IMG/VR virus record: IMGVR_UViG_3300032287_003852
Span: 1-37,978 of that record
Source of the DNA: a virus
Direction: 5' to 3' (one strand)
Length of the DNA stretch: 37,978 nucleotides
In this document: positions 4,130 to 29,716 of the stretch, piece by piece
Position numbering within the stretch: position 1 is the first letter of the stretch
Layout: every line of letters starts with the position of its first letter
Notes under the pieces: model-generated
What the model was told of the DNA's origin: nothing
The model's input: only the letters and a program-made list of their open reading frames with translations
Database searches by the model: none
Translations under genes and position numbers: made by a program

Positions 4130-7100
4130 TTAGAACGATGGTGTAAATCCAGTAGATTGAGAAGCCAATTGACCTCCAGCTCTTGTGATTGTGATACGGT
4201 TGATGAACTTGTGAATACCTCTTGGGAAGTCAACGATAATATCGATGATACCTGCATTATTTTCAAGAACTTCAGTTCCGTTATTTGAATCATCAAAGAC
4301 TACGTCAAATGTTGAGATACCTCTAGCGTCTTGAACCGCAGTTAAGTAGTTCTTAACGAGAGTCTTAACTCTTAATCTAGTCGTAGTATCGTTGAAATCA
4401 AATAGGAAGTTCAATAAGATACGTTCAATGTCTCTTTCAATCGTTACTAAGGCTTCTCTTACGTGAACGTTGTTCAGCGCTGATTTAACTCTTTGGTATC
4501 CGGTGTTGTTTGAGAAAATCATAACACCGAAACCTCTACGTCTAACGATCAAGTTGAAACCTGCTGGTTCCAAGAAGTCTCTGTCGTCATTAGTTAAGTC
4601 GTACTCAACTCCTGTAATTTCAGGTTCAGTAATGATACCTCTTTTACCTGCTACGATTGAGAAAGTATTACCGCTACTGTATTTCTTCATGTACGTGTTT
4701 GCAACGTATGATGCTGGTGGAATTGATTTATTTCTACCGCCTTCAAAGATTACTAAGTTAGGCATGAAGTATGCAGCATAAGATGCAATCGAAATACCGT
4801 TTTTCTCTCCTGTTGCAAATCCAAATGTGTAAGATGGATTAGATGATAAATTACCACCAGTTGAAATGTATTCAGCCGATACTAGGTTTGTGTTAACATC
4901 AATGAAGCTTGGATCAATTGATTTCTCATATTGTGCAAAGGATGGAGCATTTAGGATAGCTAAGGCTTTTCCGTGATTTGCTGCAAGCTGAGCAAGTTGC
5001 TGCTTAGACGCGCTCCAAATTTGACCTTCATAAGAATCGATGATGTAACGATAGTCTAATGTTTCATTATCGGCTAGTGTAGAAGCAATGTTAGTATCGT
5101 TGAACATGTAGTCCAAGATAGTATTTTGACGCTCAGCTGTTCCGTTAGGATACAATCCGCTTTCATCAACTTGCATTGCAGGTACGTAGAAACCTCTAAG
5201 ATCAGTTACGTAGTTTTTGATTCCTTTGTAAACGCTAAGGCCTGCATTTCCAGCTAATGAAGCTGGCGTAATGTCAATGCCTGTAATGTTTGAATCAGCA
5301 GCCGTATCGACTGTGATTGTGTATTTTAGAGTCTTAACCGGTAAGCTAGAAGGTCCGTAGTTTACAGTAACTAGTTGAGAGTAAACTGACTTAATTCTTA
5401 GTGCACGATTACGAATTACTTGGTCGCCATTTGCATCTTTGACTATTCCAGCTTTAACCCATTGACCGACTTTAAAGAATGAATCTACTAGAGTTCTCTT
5501 AGCTGAATCGTATGTGTATCCAGTATTTGCAGTTTCTTTCTTAGCTACGTTTCCGTAAAGTGAAGGATTTAACGTAAATACCACTTGATTTGGAGAGAAG
5601 AACTTGTAGTTGCTGGCTCCAGTAGTGATGAAGTAGTTAGAATCAGTCAAATCGAAATCTGCTTTGAATTGAGTAGTGTTAGTTGATTTGATGTGCAAGT
5701 ATGCCGGTGCCGGGCTAACAGCTCCGTCGGTTATGTACTCAACGTCAACTTGATTTTGGAATGCTGCATCTTGGTAAGCGTAAAACTCGATGTACTTGAT
5801 TTGTCCGGTGCTTTGAGTTTTGACTAAGCCATCGGTTGATAAGTAAAGAGTAGTAGGCGTGCTAGATGGAGCAGCTAAGTAGTGTAGAGTATCTCCAGTT
5901 TTGATGAATCCATTTGCCCATGCGTTATACAATTTACTTCCGATAGTTGCAACAATGTACTTGTCGCCAGTTGGTAAATTTGATGGACCTGAAAGCTTTT
6001 GAACTGTGTATGTTTCGCCAGCGGCATAAGTTGAATTGTAATCAACGTTATCCAATGCGAAATAATACTCGTAGCCAGCCGATTTTCTGTAACTTAATAC
6101 GTCGATCAGAGCAACTGGATCAACTGTACTGATTCCGTTATCTACTGTGTAAAGTTGTTTAGTATTGTCAGTCGTGTTAAGTTCGTCAAAACCGTAACCT
6201 ACTAAGTCAATTCGTTGTTCTGCGATCGGCTCGGTTGAGCTACCGCTATCAAAAGTAGAATTAGTTAAGTCGATCATGTCAACTTTCTTGTAGTCGATTG
6301 CACAAAATACTCCGCACTGGCTGAATTTTCTGTTGAATAATGTGTCAATTGAAGAGACTGCTCCAGTTAAATCTCTGAAATCTGGGATCATTGCTCCAAT
6401 TGTACGGTTTATTACTGAAATTTCTCTAAGTGAAAGGAAATCGTTCATCTTAGCGAGTTCAATACCTGATGGATTAAAGAACTGCCCGTAAATTGGGTCT
6501 TTAGAAAGTCTGATGTAATCGGTCCAATCGCCTTCAACTACTGCGATTTCGACAAAGTAGTCAGAAACGTAGTCGTCTGGGTGTAAAAATTCAGGAATTT
6601 CTACTTTTTCTCCTAGAAGCTTGTAGTATTCCTTAACTTTAATATCATATCCGGTAGTATCGGCTACTCTAACCCATGCAGTCACTGCTTTCTTAGAAAG
6701 GTTTACTAAGCTTAATAGCTTATTAGCATCACGATCCGCTGTACCAGTAGCTGGGAAAGAATCTCCTAACTGAATGTTTTTGTATTTGTTAACCGCATCA
6801 ACATCAGCAAACCATAGTTTCTGAGTATTGTAGAAATGTGAAAGACTATCTTGATAAAGATTAGCCGCCCAATTTGAATTATTTGATGCCGATTCAGTAT
6901 TAAATGTTGTAAAGTATGCAACATCAGTATCTGCAACCGGTAAAAGATTCAAAGCGTAAACTGGGCCTTGTCTCAATGCTACTTCTATCGTTCTATGAAA
7001 GAAGCTTCCGTTCTTTTCTAGTTTAGAATCATTTTCTCCGTATACTGCGGTTAATGAACGTAAGTCGTTAATTAGTACTACTGAGTTGATAGGTCCTTTT

Positions 7101-7222
7101 TTGCTGGATCCTATTACGAGTCTGCCTGTCGATAAAGGTAAGCTGAGATTAGTGCTTTCGTCGATTTCGACCGTGTAAACACCGCTTGACTTGAATCGGT
7201 TCAGATTTAATTTTTCTGCCAT
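4130..7222 (-). CDS. 18: Contractile tail sheath protein (T4 gp18-like), unusually large
   Basis: Forms the contractile outer tail tube. The N-terminus (SSGVYTVEIDESTNLSLPLS, then GRLVIGSSKKGP and ALRQGPVYALNLLP) and the C-terminus (REALVTIERDIERILLNFLF, FDVVFDDSNN, VDFPRGIHKFINRITITRAG) are typical of sheath proteins that interlock through terminal arms. At 1030 residues it is far longer than T4 gp18 (659). The extra length is in the middle, roughly residues 330-640, rich in Tyr, Thr, Ser and Asn, probably additional surface domains. It is transcribed alone and away from the tube gene, behind two late-promoter-like motifs, and ends at a bidirectional terminator. Confidence 0.93.
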   Translation of the reverse strand: MAEKLNLNRFKSSGVYTVEIDESTNLSLPLSTGRLVIGSSKKGPINSVVLINDLRSLTAVYGENDSKLEKNGSFFHRTIEVALRQGPVYALNLLPVADTDVAYFTTFNTESASNNSNWAANLYQDSLSHFYNTQKLWFADVDAVNKYKNIQLGDSFPATGTADRDANKLLSLVNLSKKAVTAWVRVADTTGYDIKVKEYYKLLGEKVEIPEFLHPDDYVSDYFVEIAVVEGDWTDYIRLSKDPIYGQFFNPSGIELAKMNDFLSLREISVINRTIGAMIPDFRDLTGAVSSIDTLFNRKFSQCGVFCAIDYKKVDMIDLTNSTFDSGSSTEPIAEQRIDLVGYGFDELNTTDNTKQLYTVDNGISTVDPVALIDVLSYRKSAGYEYYFALDNVDYNSTYAAGETYTVQKLSGPSNLPTGDKYIVATIGSKLYNAWANGFIKTGDTLHYLAAPSSTPTTLYLSTDGLVKTQSTGQIKYIEFYAYQDAAFQNQVDVEYITDGAVSPAPAYLHIKSTNTTQFKADFDLTDSNYFITTGASNYKFFSPNQVVFTLNPSLYGNVAKKETANTGYTYDSAKRTLVDSFFKVGQWVKAGIVKDANGDQVIRNRALRIKSVYSQLVTVNYGPSSLPVKTLKYTITVDTAADSNITGIDITPASLAGNAGLSVYKGIKNYVTDLRGFYVPAMQVDESGLYPNGTAERQNTILDYMFNDTNIASTLADNETLDYRYIIDSYEGQIWSASKQQLAQLAANHGKALAILNAPSFAQYEKSIDPSFIDVNTNLVSAEYISTGGNLSSNPSYTFGFATGEKNGISIASYAAYFMPNLVIFEGGRNKSIPPASYVANTYMKKYSSGNTFSIVAGKRGIITEPEITGVEYDLTNDDRDFLEPAGFNLIVRRRGFGVMIFSNNTGYQRVKSALNNVHVREALVTIERDIERILLNFLFDFNDTTTRLRVKTLVKNYLTAVQDARGISTFDVVFDDSNNGTEVLENNAGIIDIIVDFPRGIHKFINRITITRAGGQLASQSTGFTPSF

Positions 7223-7885: not shown

Positions 7886-9259
7886 ATGATTGTAAGTACT
7901 GAATTTCACACGGAAGACTCAACGTTAGTCATTTCGTATTATAAGCCAGATGGAACAATTGGATTCATGAAGAAGCCGATTCTACCGCATGATCTTTATA
8001 ACTGGAACTTAACTCCAACCCCAACCGAGAATCGTAACTGGGATGGAAAGTTTCTAAAAAAAGTCCAAGGTAAGTGGTTAAGTCGTTTTAGACTTGAAGA
8101 GTTAACCCAAACTCGATTAGACCAAACCGAGTTAGATTCCATCTACTCTGATGATAGTCCAAAAAAGTACTATCTCGATATTGAGATCCAGTTGTTATCA
8201 ACTGACTTCCCGGATCCAAATAAAGCAGCGATGCCAGTTAATTTAATAACGTTCGTGAATGAGGATAATATCTGTTTCGTAATGTCAACCATGAAGAACT
8301 TAGAGAATCCAGTAATTTCGCAAATGCAAGATGAGGTTAACGATTACTTTAAGGCTCACGGCCAAGATTTCACTCTTAAGTATCTGTTTTTTGAGACAGA
8401 GGAAGAGATGATGACTACCTTTTTTCACAAAGTGCTTCCAAAGATTCCATTCTTGACAGGCTGGAACGTAATCGGATTTGACTGGTTGTATTTGATCAAT
8501 CGCTGTAAGAATTTAGGAATTGATCCAATGGCGCAAATGCCATCTAAGACATTGATCGGTAAAGCTAAAATGCCAGTTCACATGGGACTTCTGGATTACA
8601 TGGAAGTTTTTATGAACACAAAGCCGTATAAGGTTGTTGAAAATTACAAGTTAGATTATATTGCAAATCTTGTGCTTGGAACCACCAAACTACACAGTGA
8701 ATACGCAACGATGCTAGAAGCTCAACAGGATGTTGAGAATTTTATCAAGTACAACATCATTGATACTATTCTTATCAAATTGATAGAAGATAAGCTTGGC
8801 CTACTTGATGTCGCTTTTGCAATCTCTAAGTTTGCAAGAGTCGATGTTTCAAAGGTGTTCTCGGCAGTATTCATTACAGAGACGTTAATGTGCCGAGAAT
8901 TCTTAGAGCGTGGCCTGTACATGGCAAACGATCGAAGAGATCTTGAAGAGGATGCAACCTATGATGGCGCGTACGTTGCAAAACCTGAACCTGGATATTA
9001 CAAATACGTGTCATGTTTTGACTTTGCCTCAATGTATCCGAACATTCAAATTCAGTTTAATATTTCACCGGACGCTTACTTGGGAAAAATTAAACCTGAG
9101 CAGCAACCAACTGATGGTCAAATTCTGACAAAAAACAACACACTATTTACTAAAAAGTTTGATTCTGCTGCTCGCACAATCTTAACCCGTTTGTACAACG
9201 GTCGCGTTGACACCAAGAATGAAATGAAAAAACTAGAAGAGCAATTAAATGCTAACTAA
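7886..9259 (+). CDS. 43A: Family B DNA polymerase, N-terminal part (T4 gp43 split gene)
   Basis: Contains the proofreading 3'-5' exonuclease and the start of the palm. Exo I is YYLDIEIQ (D98, E100), Exo II is NVIGFD (194-199), Exo III is YNIID (289-293), and polymerase motif A is DFASMYPNI (379-387) followed by QFNISPD as in T4. The frame then ends at residue 457, at the point that corresponds to the start of the fingers. Motif B (KxxxNSxYG) and motif C (YGDTDS), both needed for synthesis, are missing and are not encoded elsewhere in the window. T4 gp43 is 898 residues. Split polymerases are known in some T4-like phages, so a second subunit gene outside the window is the likely explanation. 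Confidence 0.92.
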   Translation: MIVSTEFHTEDSTLVISYYKPDGTIGFMKKPILPHDLYNWNLTPTPTENRNWDGKFLKKVQGKWLSRFRLEELTQTRLDQTELDSIYSDDSPKKYYLDIEIQLLSTDFPDPNKAAMPVNLITFVNEDNICFVMSTMKNLENPVISQMQDEVNDYFKAHGQDFTLKYLFFETEEEMMTTFFHKVLPKIPFLTGWNVIGFDWLYLINRCKNLGIDPMAQMPSKTLIGKAKMPVHMGLLDYMEVFMNTKPYKVVENYKLDYIANLVLGTTKLHSEYATMLEAQQDVENFIKYNIIDTILIKLIEDKLGLLDVAFAISKFARVDVSKVFSAVFITETLMCREFLERGLYMANDRRDLEEDATYDGAYVAKPEPGYYKYVSCFDFASMYPNIQIQFNISPDAYLGKIKPEQQPTDGQILTKNNTLFTKKFDSAARTILTRLYNGRVDTKNEMKKLEEQLNAN

Positions 9260-22397: not shown

Positions 22398-22763
22398 TTA
22401 CTTAGGCATTTTAGCCATGCCAGGCTCAACATTCTTGTTGATAGTCTTTCCTTTGATAACTAATTTAGCCATCTTAGGTTCAACTTCTTTCTTGATTGCG
22501 CTACCTTTAGTTGTAGGTAATTTAGAAGTTTTTTCGTCAACCGTTTTGTTAATAGCTTTACCTTTACCTTTAGGAAGGTCAGACATTTCAGGCTTAACTG
22601 ATTTGCTGATCGCTTTACCATTTCCTTTAGGAAGATCTGAAGTGTTAGTGTCTACTGACTTGTTAGACTTAGAACCTTTACCTTTAGGAAGGTCAGCCAT
22701 TTGTTGATCAATTGCCTTCTTTTCAAGAAGAAACTCGCCGTAGCTTAGAACTGATTTGCTCAT
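22398..22763 (-). CDS. Lys-rich tandem-repeat protein with a capsid-targeting-like N-terminus
   Basis: 121 residues. The start, MSKSVLSYGEFLLEKK, fits the T4 capsid-targeting pattern (S-Y-G-E-F-L-L-E against T-Y-Q-E-F-I-A-E). From residue 22 the protein is a run of 19-residue repeats (22-40, 41-59, 60-78, 79-97, then 18 residues 98-115 and a partial end) of the form (M/T)(A/S)DLPKGKGKAINKxVxxx. It is strongly basic, low in hydrophobics and likely unfolded. A basic repeat protein with a head-targeting signal, next to the capsid gene, suggests a packaged DNA-binding internal protein, comparable in idea to T4 internal proteins or protamines. That is inference. Confidence 0.75.
   Translation of the reverse strand: MSKSVLSYGEFLLEKKAIDQQMADLPKGKGSKSNKSVDTNTSDLPKGNGKAISKSVKPEMSDLPKGKGKAINKTVDEKTSKLPTTKGSAIKKEVEPKMAKLVIKGKTINKNVEPGMAKMPK
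22401..22700 (-). repeat. 57-base tandem coding repeat
   Basis: Four full copies of a 19-codon unit, a fifth of 18 codons and a six-codon remnant. The DLPKGKGKAINK core is best kept in copies 2 and 3, while later copies diverge (KLPTTKGSAIKK, KLVIKGKTINK). Confidence 0.85.
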
Positions 22764-22797: not shown

Positions 22798-22806
22798 TTA
22801 TTTATT
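22798..22806 (-). promoter_or_regulatory. Late-promoter-like motif before the Lys-rich repeat gene
   Basis: The minus strand reads AATAAATAA, 35 bases before the start at 22763. It lies downstream of the major capsid terminator, so it restarts transcription for the following genes. Confidence 0.58.
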
Positions 22807-22882: not shown

Positions 22883-24619
22883 TTAGTAAGAAGCAGAAGG
22901 ACGAGTTGAACCAGTCAATACGCCTAGGCCAGTTACTTCCATAGTGATGTATTGAGTTTCAGGATGCCATCCAGCCTCAGTGATTGCATAACGAGACTTC
23001 ATACCGATCTTAGGAGAGAAAGTTCCCTCTGCGATAGTTTGAAGAGACTCAGCCATGATGTAAGGTAAGAATTTAACACCTGGTTCTTCGTCAGCACCTT
23101 TACGTCCGATGTGGATACGGTTATCGCTGAAAGACAAGTTAGGATCTACGTAGATGGTTAAACCATGTACTTTACCTGCAGGATACAATTGACCTGGAGT
23201 AGAAGGTAGATCGTTGTTGAATGGAGCGAAAGAGTAACCAGCAACATCAGCAAGAGCAGATGCAACACGACCGTTAGTTACGATGTAAGTACCAGCACCG
23301 AAACGACCTCTGTGATAGATCAAGTTAGCCATTTCAAGGATTTTGGTTACAACGCGACGTTGTAGTGTTGAGATGTTCTCGAAACCAGTTGAACCTACAG
23401 TTAGGTCAAGGTTACAGATGTTAGAACCTTCAACCGCTTCAAGAGCAGTTTTGTGAGTAGCACCTAAAGTTAATACTCTGTCAACCAATTTCTTGTTGAT
23501 AGATTGAGCAAGTTCGTTAACTGCTACGTTTTCCAACATAGAGATTACGTCGAAATTCCAAACTCTGTTAAGATCTTGGATTTGCTCAACTGTTGCAGAG
23601 ATAGCAACTTGGTCGCCTTTAGCTTCGATGAACTTAGTGAACATACGAAGACCCATTTGACGGAATTTAGAAACCTCAGCGTTAGCACGAGTCATTCCAC
23701 CGAAATTAGCTTGAGAACCAGTAGATCCTAAGAAAGGACCGTCTACGTCTGTAGCTTCAGTTGAACCTGTACCAGTCCACTCGTTATCACTTAGAGAAGT
23801 GAAACCAGAGATATGGTTTTCAAGAGCTGAAACTAATTCGAATTTCTCAGAACCTGAGAAAGTGAATAGAGCAGAACCAGTTACTGAGTAAGCACCAGAG
23901 CTAATCGCACCAACTGCTTTAAGAACTGGAGAACCAGTAGTTAAGTAGTCTTGGATAGAATTAGAAGATGAATCAGTAGCAGAGATTACTTTGAAGATAG
24001 GAGTACCATCAACACGAGATCTTCCAACGTATTGGATGATCAAGTCATCAGTTAGAGCTCCATCGATACCGTAGATAGTACCCGCAGTGATTGATGCGAT
24101 CAAACCTGTACCAGCAGCACCTGCTAATACCGCGCCAGTAAGCTTCACTAGGAATGGCTCGTATTGTTTGTCGACGTTACCACCTTGGTATACGTAATCT
24201 AGGTAAGGTAGGAAACCTACAGGAGAATCCATAGGAACTACACCAACTAGGTCGAAACCGATAGTTTTAGCAGCAACTTGGATAGCTACTGGTAAAAGGC
24301 TTGGGAATTTATCACCAGAACCTGATACAGTTGAACCGTAACCTGCTTTAGTAGCACCACCACCTGAGAATGGAGTCATTGTAGATGTTGGAGCTGAAAT
24401 AGCGCCCATTGCGCTAATTGAACCTGGTTGTTGTAGGAATAATCCTGGAGCAACCGAAGACTCGTTGATAGCACCTGCGTTATCGAAGATAGCATGGTTG
24501 TGAGCTAAGTCAACTAACCAAGGACGAGCGTTGATGTCTGCGCCATAACCTTCTAAAACTGGAGCCCATGTTTCTTTGATTGAAGAGTCATTCAATCTTT
24601 TGAAAATTTTTGTTGCCAT
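22883..24619 (-). CDS. 23: Major capsid protein (T4 gp23-like)
   Basis: Forms the head lattice (HK97 fold). ETWAPVLEGYG near the start matches the T4 N-terminus (KWKPLLEGEG); VGVVPMDSPVGFLPYLDYVY matches the segment around PMNSPTGQ in gp23; ASALADVAGYSFAPF and the C-terminal EGTFSPKIGMKSRYAITEAG match the T4 end. Length 578 against 521 in T4. A likely prohead protease site is GAINE/SSVAPG (after E53), fitting the hydrophobic-x-Glu rule. A, G and T dominate the wobble-rich codon use, as in a highly expressed gene. A late-promoter-like motif lies 142 bases upstream inside the scaffold gene, and a strong terminator follows. Confidence 0.95.
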   Translation of the reverse strand: MATKIFKRLNDSSIKETWAPVLEGYGADINARPWLVDLAHNHAIFDNAGAINESSVAPGLFLQQPGSISAMGAISAPTSTMTPFSGGGATKAGYGSTVSGSGDKFPSLLPVAIQVAAKTIGFDLVGVVPMDSPVGFLPYLDYVYQGGNVDKQYEPFLVKLTGAVLAGAAGTGLIASITAGTIYGIDGALTDDLIIQYVGRSRVDGTPIFKVISATDSSSNSIQDYLTTGSPVLKAVGAISSGAYSVTGSALFTFSGSEKFELVSALENHISGFTSLSDNEWTGTGSTEATDVDGPFLGSTGSQANFGGMTRANAEVSKFRQMGLRMFTKFIEAKGDQVAISATVEQIQDLNRVWNFDVISMLENVAVNELAQSINKKLVDRVLTLGATHKTALEAVEGSNICNLDLTVGSTGFENISTLQRRVVTKILEMANLIYHRGRFGAGTYIVTNGRVASALADVAGYSFAPFNNDLPSTPGQLYPAGKVHGLTIYVDPNLSFSDNRIHIGRKGADEEPGVKFLPYIMAESLQTIAEGTFSPKIGMKSRYAITEAGWHPETQYITMEVTGLGVLTGSTRPSASY

Positions 24620-24638: not shown

Positions 24639-25922
24639 TTAGTTTTGTGCTCTTCTTTGGAGCATTTCAATGTAAGAATTAGAGTAGCCTCTTAGACTTT
24701 CATTGACTTGTTTTAACGAGACATAACCTTCTTTACCTTGGTTTTCGTTAATTGTTTGATTATTTATATTTGCTTGGGTAGCAATTCTTTCACTAATTCC
24801 TCTAAGATTACGTGAATCCCAGAAAGCTTTAACTTGGTATGGAGTGTTCAACGACATGTTGTTAGCTTGTGCTGAAATCCAATTTTTTTCACCATCTGTC
24901 ATGCTTTCGTATAGCTCTTTGTATTGAGCAGGCATGAATTTAACGTAGTTAGGAGTGTTTTCAACTTGTTTGTTAAGAACAGCTTCCATGATGTTAACTA
25001 CTTCGTCTTCTGTGAAGAAGATAGCGCCTTTCATAGTCTCAACGATTGCGGTTTTAGACTCTTGATCCAAGTTGTAGAAAGCTTGTTTTCTAGCTTCGTT
25101 TAACAATTTCAAGAAAGGGTATTTACCTTCCAATACGGCGTTTGCTGTGTTAGATTTAATATGAGTTAAAATACCGTCAACTGCATTAACTAGATCATCA
25201 ACTGATGAATTTTCAGAGATTTCAAAATCAGCACTTTCGTTTAATTTTTTAACCTCTCCCAATAGAGAACGGGTTTTAGCTGTTGCTCCAGGAATCATTT
25301 TTTCATTCAAAGATTCAACGATGTAGTTAGAATACTTGATACCTTTATCTAAATTTTCTCCTAAGTAGTTAGAGTATTTGATCGCTGTATCAAGATTCTC
25401 AGCTAAGTAGTTAGAGAATTTGATACCGTTTTCAGCATGTTCTGCAACGTGCTCAGCATATTGAATGCTTAGATCAACGTTTTCAGCTAAGTAGTTTGCG
25501 TATTCAACTGTCTTTTCAACGTTTTCTGCAACGTATTCAGCATAATTAGCTGTTTCGTTTACTTTTTGTCCTAAGTAGTCGGAGTAAGCAATGTTCTTTT
25601 GAACTTTTTCTCCCAAATAGTCAGAGTAATCAATTACGTTGTTTACTTTTTCTGCAACGTGTTCAGTGTAGTTAACGCTCTGATTCAACATTGTTGAAAG
25701 ATAGTTAGTATATTCAACTAGGCTTTCCATTTCGCCAGCTAAGTAGTTTACGTACTCAACCATTTTCGAAACTACTGGAGATTCGCCAGTTGAAGCGTTT
25801 TCAGAGATCTTTTGAAGACCTTTATTGTTTTTAGAGATGCTCTCTTGTAAAGCTGAGAATTTCTTTTTAACCAATTCAGAGTATTGGTTCATCTCGTCTT
25901 TTGTTACAAACTCATTAGCCAT
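24639..25922 (-). CDS. 22: Scaffold protein from an internal start (candidate nested product)
   Basis: From the internal ATG at 25922 the same frame gives 427 residues, MANEFVTKDEMNQY..., the Met-Ala start used by several virion genes here. The leader (CAGCAAATGG) is A-rich like other starts. The product would be all helix and coiled coil: residues 1-50, then eleven 14-residue repeats, then a 200-residue C-terminal domain. That resembles a stand-alone prohead core protein. Scaffold is needed in far larger amounts than protease, so separate expression makes sense. Whether both forms exist is not shown by sequence alone. Confidence 0.55.
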   Translation of the reverse strand: MANEFVTKDEMNQYSELVKKKFSALQESISKNNKGLQKISENASTGESPVVSKMVEYVNYLAGEMESLVEYTNYLSTMLNQSVNYTEHVAEKVNNVIDYSDYLGEKVQKNIAYSDYLGQKVNETANYAEYVAENVEKTVEYANYLAENVDLSIQYAEHVAEHAENGIKFSNYLAENLDTAIKYSNYLGENLDKGIKYSNYIVESLNEKMIPGATAKTRSLLGEVKKLNESADFEISENSSVDDLVNAVDGILTHIKSNTANAVLEGKYPFLKLLNEARKQAFYNLDQESKTAIVETMKGAIFFTEDEVVNIMEAVLNKQVENTPNYVKFMPAQYKELYESMTDGEKNWISAQANNMSLNTPYQVKAFWDSRNLRGISERIATQANINNQTINENQGKEGYVSLKQVNESLRGYSNSYIEMLQRRAQN

Positions 25923-26630
25923 TTGCTGTGTATTATTTTGTTTAGGTGTTGTTTCAGAATTATTTATTTTATAGATTCTCACAGAATCTTCAAAATTGAA
26001 GTTTTCAGAAATATCAGTTAATTTGTTGGTAATCGCAGTAGTCTTTAGATTATCTAAAGATTCAAAAATCGCTGAGAAGCTGCCTTGTAAGCTTTCAGAT
26101 ACTTGAGATAGTGAAGCTTGTGAGAAACCAGGTTCAGCCACTAGATCGTAAGTAAAAATCTTATGTAGCTTAACTTTACCGTTTTGGTCAACATTACCTG
26201 CCGCTCTAGACGATACTGAGGTTGTGCAGCCTGATTCAACTAGAGTCTTTGCGATCTTTCCACATGGAGTGTCAAGAAGACGTAGTCTAATCTTTACGCT
26301 ATTAGAACCTTCATCGTAACTAAGACCTTCGATTACGTGAGATACGTTAGCTAGAGAAATATCAAATTTTTGTGGATGATCAAGTTCACCAAAGAGTCTG
26401 CGCTCTTCAATCTTCTTGTTTAGATACTGTAAGTGAGGTAAGTATTCGTTCTTTTCGTATACGCGATTGTTTTCGTTTACGACGCCAAAAACGGCAGCAG
26501 TACCTTCAAGAATAACGTCACCGTTAGTTTCTTTAGTTACAGTAACGGCCTCGTTAATTCTTTCAATGATGAACACTGAATTTTCAGGAACGACCGTTTG
26601 GTTTAGGTTAGCGATTTTAGTATTACTCAA
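24639..26630 (-). CDS. 21/22: Prohead protease fused to scaffold (T4 gp21 + gp22 in one frame)
   Basis: Residues 1-200 are the prohead protease: NENNRVYEKNEYLPHLQYL and FGELDHP (H85) match the T4 gp21 RLYPKRIL and GELNHP segments, SVSSRAAG supplies S140, and YDLVAEPGFSQA completes the domain; H85 and S140 have the same numbers as in T4. Residues 237-663 are a helical scaffold-like protein with eleven 14-residue repeats (291-444). An Asn/Gln/Thr linker (220-236) joins them. In T4 these are two genes. An internal ATG (M237, MANEFVTKDEMNQY) with a late-promoter-like motif 38 bases before it suggests that the scaffold is also made alone. The start is TTG 26630, the only initiator close to the upstream late promoter. 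Confidence 0.88.
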   Translation of the reverse strand: MSNTKIANLNQTVVPENSVFIIERINEAVTVTKETNGDVILEGTAAVFGVVNENNRVYEKNEYLPHLQYLNKKIEERRLFGELDHPQKFDISLANVSHVIEGLSYDEGSNSVKIRLRLLDTPCGKIAKTLVESGCTTSVSSRAAGNVDQNGKVKLHKIFTYDLVAEPGFSQASLSQVSESLQGSFSAIFESLDNLKTTAITNKLTDISENFNFEDSVRIYKINNSETTPKQNNTQQMANEFVTKDEMNQYSELVKKKFSALQESISKNNKGLQKISENASTGESPVVSKMVEYVNYLAGEMESLVEYTNYLSTMLNQSVNYTEHVAEKVNNVIDYSDYLGEKVQKNIAYSDYLGQKVNETANYAEYVAENVEKTVEYANYLAENVDLSIQYAEHVAEHAENGIKFSNYLAENLDTAIKYSNYLGENLDKGIKYSNYIVESLNEKMIPGATAKTRSLLGEVKKLNESADFEISENSSVDDLVNAVDGILTHIKSNTANAVLEGKYPFLKLLNEARKQAFYNLDQESKTAIVETMKGAIFFTEDEVVNIMEAVLNKQVENTPNYVKFMPAQYKELYESMTDGEKNWISAQANNMSLNTPYQVKAFWDSRNLRGISERIATQANINNQTINENQGKEGYVSLKQVNESLRGYSNSYIEMLQRRAQN
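24760..24768 (-). promoter_or_regulatory. Late-promoter-like motif inside the scaffold gene, for the capsid gene
   Basis: The minus strand reads TATAAATAA, containing the exact T4 late consensus, followed by TCAAA as in the motif at 26650-26658. It lies 142 bases upstream of the major capsid start. Confidence 0.6.
25299..25760 (-). repeat. Eleven tandem 42-base coding repeats in the scaffold
   Basis: Encodes residues 291-444 as eleven units of exactly 14 residues, with the pattern (V/I)xY(S/A/T)(N/E/D)(Y/H)(L/V)(A/G)E(N/K)(V/L)xxx. Examples are VEYANYLAENVDLS, IKYSNYLGENLDKG and IDYSDYLGEKVQKN. Fourteen residues equal two heptads, so an extended coiled coil is likely. Confidence 0.93.
25960..25968 (-). 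promoter_or_regulatory. Late-promoter-like motif inside the protease-scaffold gene
   Basis: The minus strand reads AATAAATAA, 38 bases before the internal ATG at 25922; it encodes part of the linker between the protease and scaffold parts. Confidence 0.5.
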
Positions 26631-26649: not shown

Positions 26650-26658
26650 TTATTTATA
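26650..26658 (-). promoter_or_regulatory. Late promoter before the protease-scaffold gene
   Basis: The minus strand reads TATAAATAA, an exact T4 late consensus, about 20 bases before the TTG start. It is the best-placed example in the window. Confidence 0.72.
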
Positions 26659-27651: not shown

Positions 27652-27660
27652 AATAAATAA
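27652..27660 (+). promoter_or_regulatory. Late-promoter-like motif driving the glycosyltransferase island
   Basis: The plus strand reads AATAAATAA, 20 bases before the GTG start at 27680. Spacing equals that of the virion genes, so the island is probably expressed late even though it lies on the opposite strand. Confidence 0.55.
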
Positions 27661-27679: not shown

Positions 27680-29716
27680 GTGAAATCAGTATTATTCACC
27701 TACTATTCAAATCCAGTACAGGATATTTTCTTGGAAAACGTCGAATCACTACTTAAAAATAGCGCATGTGTGTATGACGAAATTGTCGTTTGCTCACAAA
27801 TCGACGTCCCAGTCAAAATAGTAAAAGCTCTATCAAGGCATGCAATAGTGAGTAGAGTTTTTCCTGATCATAACTCTCAGCAAGTTAAACGAGCATCTAA
27901 TCCGACCAGGTCATATAAGGTCAATCCATTCATGTTAACTGCCCTCTCCTATAAAGAGTCAGTTGTTACCGTTTTTGATTCTCACCTGTTCGTAATTAAC
28001 CCCATTCTTAACTATTCCGGCAACAATATTTTTTATAAGAATCATAGGGGGGTACTAAGCACTCAACTTTTTACAATTGTCAATACTGAAGCAACATCCA
28101 ATCTGCTAGTAAAGGGTTTGATTGATTGCGATTTCACAGATGATTCAACTAATCATAAGTTTACATTCATTGTTGCAAATGCAGTACCTTTCACGACAGC
28201 CATCATCTATGACAAATCATTCATATTTAGCAATCCGTCCGATCAGGATTCGATCGCAGAAGACAAGTTAATCGCATTTGACCTTTCCGAAACAATGACG
28301 TCTTCCGCTATCCACAAACAGATGTGGGCAATTCGAAAAACTTACATTCCAAAAGTATCGACTTTGACAAAAATAGCAAATCATGCAAATTCAATAGTTT
28401 CAACCGCCGTTGCGGTAATCCAAGAAGTAGAAACTGCATTTACCAAGACTGGAAGTCAAGATCCAACCATCCTGTTCAAGTACACATCTAGAAGTAGACC
28501 CGATCAATTTTATCGAGGCTTAGTTAGCATCATAAATAAGTGCTCAAGTCCAAACTACTTAATACTATGCAGCTTCGATCACAACGATCCGACTTTGCCA
28601 ACCTACTTAGAATACATCAACGATCTGAATAACGATCGGATAACTGTCTTCTTGGGAGATAGTAAAAGCAAAATAGACGCGATAAACCGTGACATTAACT
28701 CTTATGACAAACACTGGGATATAGTCGTTAATATGTCAGATGACATGATTTTTACAAAAGAAGGATTCGATCTAATAATAAAAAGCGATTTCATTCAATA
28801 CTTTCCGAAGTTCGATGGAGTGATGCACTATCCTGATCAGGACGCTGGTCAAAAATTAATGACCTTATCAATATTGGGTAGAAATTATTATCTTCGATTC
28901 AATTACATATACCACCCAGATTATTCTTCTCTGTGGTGTGATAACGAAGCTATGGAAGTATCAATGCTGCTTGGAAAATATCGATACTCTCCAGTTAGAA
29001 TGTTCGATCACATTCACCCAGCGTACGGTCACTGTCAAACTGACGAGCAATATAAACACACAGAATCATTTTATCACTCAGATAATGCTGTGTACTTGCA
29101 GAGAAAAGCAAAAGGCTTTAAGTTGAAGTTTGCAATATTGATCGCAACGATTGAGACCAGAAAGCCGCAATTTGAAAAATTAAGAAGCTTCATACAGTCT
29201 CAAATCATTAAGAATTCTCTGATAGGTCAATGTGAGATCGTTCACATTAGTGACAATAAGGAAATTTCAGTAGGGTTAAAAAGGCAAAGGCTATTAGAAT
29301 TAGCTAACAGCAATTACGTTGCATTCATTGATGATGACGATTGGGTAAGCGATGATTATTTGCAAGTGATCATTAATTCAATAGACTCAAACTCGCCAGA
29401 CTCAATTGGATTTTTAGTTAGGTGCACGTTTGACGGTTCTGCACCAATCATGGCAAAGGCTTCAAACAAATACGCTGACTGGGCAGAAGACGTTGACGGT
29501 TATAAGTACGTTAGAACACCATATCATAAAACACCAATCAGAAGAGACCTTGCTGTTCAAATAGGCTTTAAGGATATTCGATACGCAGAGGATCATGATT
29601 ACAGTCGCAGGTTAAAGGCAGCGGGTCTCATAAGAAAGGAAGATTTCATTGATTCTCCACTTTACTATTATAGTTATGTACACGAAAATCCAAATACAAA
29701 ATACGGTTTAAAATAA
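27680..29716 (+). CDS. Large glycosyltransferase with two GT-A-like modules
   Basis: 678 residues from GTG. Three regions can be seen: an N-terminal part (1-220) beginning like a sugar- or nucleotide-binding fold (VLFTYYSNPVQDIF, EIVVCSQI); a middle module (about 265-480) with KYTSRSRPDQFYRGLVSIIN and a DxD-like NMSDDMIF near 350; and a C-terminal module (about 485-678) with FAILIATIETRKPQFEKLRS and AFIDDDDWVSDDYLQVI near 550, a clear GT2-type nucleotide-sugar and metal site. It transfers sugars from an activated donor; donor and acceptor are unknown. First gene of a five-gene island, four bases before the next. Confidence 0.82.
   Translation: MKSVLFTYYSNPVQDIFLENVESLLKNSACVYDEIVVCSQIDVPVKIVKALSRHAIVSRVFPDHNSQQVKRASNPTRSYKVNPFMLTALSYKESVVTVFDSHLFVINPILNYSGNNIFYKNHRGVLSTQLFTIVNTEATSNLLVKGLIDCDFTDDSTNHKFTFIVANAVPFTTAIIYDKSFIFSNPSDQDSIAEDKLIAFDLSETMTSSAIHKQMWAIRKTYIPKVSTLTKIANHANSIVSTAVAVIQEVETAFTKTGSQDPTILFKYTSRSRPDQFYRGLVSIINKCSSPNYLILCSFDHNDPTLPTYLEYINDLNNDRITVFLGDSKSKIDAINRDINSYDKHWDIVVNMSDDMIFTKEGFDLIIKSDFIQYFPKFDGVMHYPDQDAGQKLMTLSILGRNYYLRFNYIYHPDYSSLWCDNEAMEVSMLLGKYRYSPVRMFDHIHPAYGHCQTDEQYKHTESFYHSDNAVYLQRKAKGFKLKFAILIATIETRKPQFEKLRSFIQSQIIKNSLIGQCEIVHISDNKEISVGLKRQRLLELANSNYVAFIDDDDWVSDDYLQVIINSIDSNSPDSIGFLVRCTFDGSAPIMAKASNKYADWAEDVDGYKYVRTPYHKTPIRRDLAVQIGFKDIRYAEDHDYSRRLKAAGLIRKEDFIDSPLYYYSYVHENPNTKYGLK

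Follow-up and report, generated by a model that had tools for sequence, protein, structure and literature searches.

In phage lambda the scaffold Nu3 is nested in-frame within C, and to our knowledge its internal start works without an embedded phage-specific promoter. Lambda (C/Nu3), P2 (O) and Mu (I/Z) all obtain protease and scaffold from a single gene (PMC8508860). In herpes simplex virus (UL26/UL26.5), cleavage takes place between protease and scaffold, free scaffold forms the majority and fusion-derived scaffold accounts for about 10% (PMC12474303). The T4 ratio is about 100 copies of the protease gp21 to 576 of the scaffold gp22 (PMC5694885). The T4 protease cuts after L/I-x-E and is itself processed near its C-terminus; its targeting to the core and the role of its autocleavage are stated gaps (PMC9026906). 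For giant phages of the SPN3US/phiKZ type, the gp22 counterpart had stayed unconfirmed (PMC5694885).

We analysed a 37,978-nucleotide stretch of viral DNA (IMG/VR record IMGVR_UViG_3300032287_003852; hereafter the window) in which a protease and a scaffold-like region occupy one frame directly ahead of a capsid gene (Table 1). An earlier sequence-only reading had proposed an internal promoter and start within this frame, giving a little fusion and much free scaffold. We consider it likely that the locus is a nested gene supplying a scarce protease-scaffold fusion and abundant free scaffold, with a tethered protease that would release itself in the prohead core. Nested genes of this design exist in lambda (C/Nu3) and herpesviruses (UL26/UL26.5), and appear to be undescribed for T4-type S77 proteases; our searches, which covered the open literature, turned up no account of an S77 phage with a nested scaffold.

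The locus shares with T4 the protease family and fold, the catalytic His/Ser, the order protease-scaffold-gp23, sites of the L/I-x-E type in scaffold and capsid protein, and a promoter word of the type TATAAATA, which is the T4 late promoter consensus; this last likeness is one of sequence. It differs in that genes 21 and 22 are separate in T4 and joined here with the scaffold apparently nested, and in that the scaffold has 14-residue repeats and no recognisable similarity to gp22. The lambda C protein is not an S77 protease. As in herpes simplex virus, the locus encodes a protease-scaffold fusion whose C-terminal part corresponds to a nested gene, here a predicted one, whereas UL26 belongs to another protease sequence family and uses eukaryotic virus expression signals. 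ORF-300 (564 aa; prohead core scaffolding protein and protease) of the isolated jumbo phage PTm1 likewise fuses an S77-type protease to a scaffold-like C-terminus directly before the capsid gene, but has neither the junction ATG nor the YxxYLAE repeats.

Table 1. Features of the protease-scaffold locus, in window coordinates.
Feature	Position	Strand	Basis or remark
Late-promoter-like site TATAAATA of the full-length gene	26651..26658	-	About 28 nt before TTG, the modal motif spacing
Full-length protease-scaffold fusion	24639..26630	-	663 aa, TTG start; single open frame; S77 and S80 Pfam matches
Protease domain (residues ~19-178)	26097..26576	-	PF03420 match; Foldseek to T4 gp21; His85/Ser140 invariant
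Predicted autocleavage site VSE179|S180, end of protease domain	26091..26102	-	[VILM]-x-E in 26/26 sequences
Asn/Gln/Thr linker, putatively doubling as embedded promoter and leader of the nested gene	25923..25993	-	Suppressed synonymous change; A-rich start context
Embedded late-promoter-like site AATAAATAA	25960..25968	-	Codons AAA ATA AAT AAT; ends 37 bases before ATG 25922
Predicted nested free scaffold, 427 aa	24639..25922	-	ATG start M237 (Met-Ala); Met kept in 91/92 homologues; start-context score
14-residue helical repeats (Y-x-x-Y-[LVI]-[AG]-E-[NKHS]...) with L/I-x-E motifs	25296..25769	-	42-nt DNA repeats; L/I-x-E excess
Second synonymously frozen stretch, residues 620-634	24729..24773	-	TATAAATA at 24761-24768, upstream of the gp23 gene
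gp23-type major capsid protein	22883..24619	-	PF07068, E 2.5e-41; INE53|S cleavage-type motif in N-terminal region

A T4 gp21-type protease and a scaffold-like region in one frame

That protease and scaffold are encoded as a single frame was confirmed: none of its 663 codons is a stop, and the frame is still open 13 codons 5' of the TTG. An S77 protease of the T4 gp21 type comes first, followed by a variable linker of Asn, Gln and Thr and then by a helical region resembling a scaffold. The protease passes the Pfam family cut-off for Peptidase_S77 (E 9e-10; 38.8 bits against a cut-off of 27), it also matches the PHROG head maturation protease phrog_207 (E 9e-37), and H85 and S140 are invariant in 20 of 20 aligned homologues. 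A PDB sequence search with the whole protein gave zero matches. An AlphaFold model of the full-length fusion (pLDDT 51 overall, about 80 across most of the protease) matched T4 gp21 (5jbl; Foldseek E 3e-8, probability 1.00), whose chains were the only PDB matches with E of at most 0.001; their TM-scores (target) of 0.67-0.71 identify the gp21 fold. By profile and by fold, the protease belongs to the T4 gp21 (S77) family.

The scaffold-like region expected after the linker was also found. It is predicted to be mostly helical from residue 244 on, and its repeats are modelled as helices at low confidence. Residues 237-663 matched no annotated gp22-type scaffold family and are not placed in the gp22 family; their sole match, a weak one, is to phrog_2782, of unknown function. 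The gp23 capsid gene begins 19 bases past the fusion stop codon, with no other scaffold-like gene between the two. In all inspected members of the window's subclade the full-length frame starts with TTG or GTG, 20-30 nt past TATAAATAA, a kind of start that would tend to keep fusion levels low.

Cleavage-type motifs

A self-cleavage site near the linker, which the sequence-only reading had anticipated as the means of release, is matched at the level of motif by E179, which lies between protease and linker and is invariant in the subgroup A1 alignment. In residues 237-663 the L/I-x-E motif occurs 18 times, against 5.9 expected by shuffling (z 5.7). A test of 24 window proteins found [LIV]NE[SA] in the fusion protein and, once, in gp23 (INE53|S), and in none of the others; close relatives that span the gp23 site keep [IL]NE[SA] there, except for one with ILES. 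These motifs support the prediction that one specificity would serve autorelease, scaffold destruction and capsid trimming.

A putative internal start and a promoter-like word in the linker

The proposed internal start, M237, is conserved in a region that otherwise varies. Of 92 distinct fused homologues, some with identity as low as about 30%, 91 have an ATG at the linker/scaffold junction; the exception is the isolated phage PTm1, and the junction alignment of the Lak phages is uncertain. We profiled gene starts in G001, a 180-kb contig (locus L005) that is 95% identical in the fusion protein and is a relative rather than the window's own genome, with starts approximated as the first ATG of long frames. 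Starts in G001 are A-rich over 25 nt and have no purine-rich ribosome site. Ranked in this way, M237 exceeds 98.8% of internal Met codons, and no other internal Met of the fusion gene falls well within the range of real starts.

The linker motif that had been noted ahead of this ATG belongs to a word used across the genome. When all 8-mers were counted, ATAAATAA ranked top 20-80 nt before gene starts in G001, where 28 of its 60 copies lie in that interval (0-17 for permuted words) at a modal spacing of 28 nt. Promoters of the sigma-70 style were not enriched (39 found, 52.8 expected). On this evidence AATAAATAA is the putative promoter word proper to the window's phage group. In G007, a 343-kb contig of another subclade (locus L105), the top upstream word is GATATATA rather than ATAAATAA, with 38 of 70 copies near starts. 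Raw counts had shown no enrichment of ATATATAAA in G007; position-aware k-mer counting placed the overlapping GATATATA at the top. That two subclades among related large phages carry different genome-wide upstream words suggests a switch in promoter specificity.

The linkers follow the same division: those of the window's subclade have ATAAATA, and those of the G007 and L092 subclades have GATATATA, so that the proposal of an internal promoter holds at the level of sequence. In motif windows picked by hand, 71 of 91 linkers have either word within 78 nt. Recoding these peptides with codons taken from the gene itself gives an expectation of 9.0, a comparison that is not to be read as a probability because the linker sequences are phylogenetically related. 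Of 16 invariant Ile columns, I222 is the only one with ATA in all eight representatives. In most subclades the embedded word lies 45-76 nt from the internal ATG, farther than the modal 28 nt, and no clear linker word was seen in two small distant subclades (L037-L040 and L047-L049/L064).

Other copies of AATAAATAA occur in the window. One at 27652 (+) lies 28 nt before the GTG start of a divergent glycosyltransferase-like gene cluster (27680-29716, +), so the word is not restricted to head genes. Another lies about 32 nt upstream of a tail sheath protein gene (4130-7222, -; phrog_34521), whose 1030-aa product is far larger than T4 gp18. A small ORF past the capsid gene (22398-22763, -) has its own copy at 22806; it encodes repeats of the LPKGKGKAI[SN]K type (57-nt DNA repeat) and gave no family match. 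The window also holds a family B DNA polymerase ORF (7886-9259, +; 457 aa) that stops soon after the polymerase domain begins (it covers 16-143 of the 453 profile positions), which suggests a split polymerase.

Synonymous constraint across the linker

Synonymous-codon change was compared with its expectation for each pair and amino acid in codon alignments of seven subclades. In the block from -28 to +6 codons around the internal Met, the observed/expected ratios were 0.62, 0.37, 0.71, 0.57 and 0.31 in five subclades, where just 0-7 of 5000 column permutations were as low; the block was not significant in the two small distant subclades named above (0.88 and 0.75). Finer windows place the minima at the promoter word and at the codons flanking the ATG.

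These data bear on whether the internal ATG needs a promoter of its own. It could instead be reached by re-initiation on one long mRNA, as in lambda C/Nu3, with ATAAATAA incidental or driven by the protein sequence; the start context is good by itself, and two distant subclades retain the ATG in linkers that have no clear promoter word. We hold this to be unlikely, since phage-type words occur in the linkers far above the recoded expectation, the linker word switches between subclades together with the genome-wide word, and the promoter codons are themselves under synonymous constraint.

Less likely still is that the internal Met goes unused and all scaffold is made as the 663-residue polyprotein, 1:1 with protease, free scaffold then arising by self-cleavage near the linker. 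The single continuous frame, the conserved cleavage-type E179 just ahead of the linker and the PTm1 gene, which does without the junction ATG, would all fit. Such a scheme does not account for a Met kept almost throughout inside an otherwise variable linker, for its A-rich, start-like context and the suppressed synonymous change around it, or for linker promoter words that shift in step with the genome's own. It would, moreover, require hundreds of proteases per head, against the T4 ratio given above.

The most frozen stretch of the gene lies elsewhere, at residues 620-634, where eight representatives show 0 of 72-81 expected synonymous differences. The TATAAATA word within it is present in most close relatives and absent in some. 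The stretch is possibly the promoter or leader of the capsid gene; the members that do not have the word weaken its reading as simply that promoter, and the element may be more than a promoter. As the word accounts for this stretch only in part, one could suppose that synonymous constraint reflects some other element in general, for instance a structured RNA or a site of recombination or homing, rather than a promoter and start. We give this very little weight for the linker, where the constraint falls on the promoter word and around the ATG and follows each subclade's own word.

Distribution of the fusion

We examined 44 loci from a first IMG/VR scan, the best 80 of at least 584 relatives from a second, and 13 loci in bacterial genome contigs. 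The comparison of gene structure that had been suggested as a check showed the fusion recurring in more than 100 loci. Among the matches listed, proteases of at least about 41% identity are fused, with complete frames of 572-811 aa and one exception of 416 aa (L145). Fused homologues include 462-735 kb phage records, Lak phages and the isolated Tenacibaculum phage PTm1, whereas the proteases of classical T4-like phages are separate genes of 195-237 aa. A tree built from 52 proteases parts the fused forms from the separate ones at one branch (support 100/96); judged by this tree, the fused arrangement is ancient and widespread on its side of that branch. The Lak copies (L050/L051) join an S77-type protease to an acidic C-terminus, in proteins of about 590 aa overall, and have no YxxYLAE repeats; the Lak-B copy of the fusion requires TAG decoded as an amino acid.

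An assembly or sequencing error masking a stop between two ordinary genes, which the sequence-only reading had named as its own possible undoing and for which the separate genes of classical T4-like phages might speak, is already refuted, because deep relatives are likewise fused and the same open frame recurs, at 30-99% identity, across numerous metagenomes as well as in phage records that are finished.

Discussion

Each prediction of the nested-gene reading that could be put to the sequences held, and the reading is supported at that level. The promoter upstream of the gene would give a long mRNA on which the weak TTG start limits the amount of fusion. Another such promoter, embedded in the linker codons, would with its A-rich leader and the internal ATG yield much more of the 427-residue scaffold; we infer that this internal site is both transcribed and translated. 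A small share of fusion and a large share of free scaffold would agree with the conserved TTG/GTG start and, by analogy, with the stoichiometry of T4 and herpesviruses, and two promoters combined with a weak start could reproduce a T4-like ratio of gp21 to gp22.

Fusion and free scaffold would co-assemble through their common helical repeats, which would make the protease a fixed minority within the prohead core. Once shell assembly has finished, it would free itself at E179|S, shred the scaffold at its numerous L/I-x-E sites and trim gp23, the capsid protein, at INE53|S. This reading predicts definite product sizes and cut sites.

We lean slightly towards a broader proposition: that a lineage among the huge T4-related phages sets its protease:scaffold ratio by two promoters for the phage late machinery, the one in the linker being rewritten along with promoter specificity, and builds its core from cleavable scaffold repeats. 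If true, one gene would provide a self-dosing, self-destructing core.

The nested protease-scaffold plan would make a further appearance, beside the lambda type and the herpesviruses, here with a promoter that lies within codons and changes along with the specificity of the phage's promoters. Automated annotation would list one protein here and overlook an abundant free scaffold. With the scaffold physically part of the protease gene in another giant-phage lineage, tethering may offer an answer to the gap in how the protease is targeted to the core.
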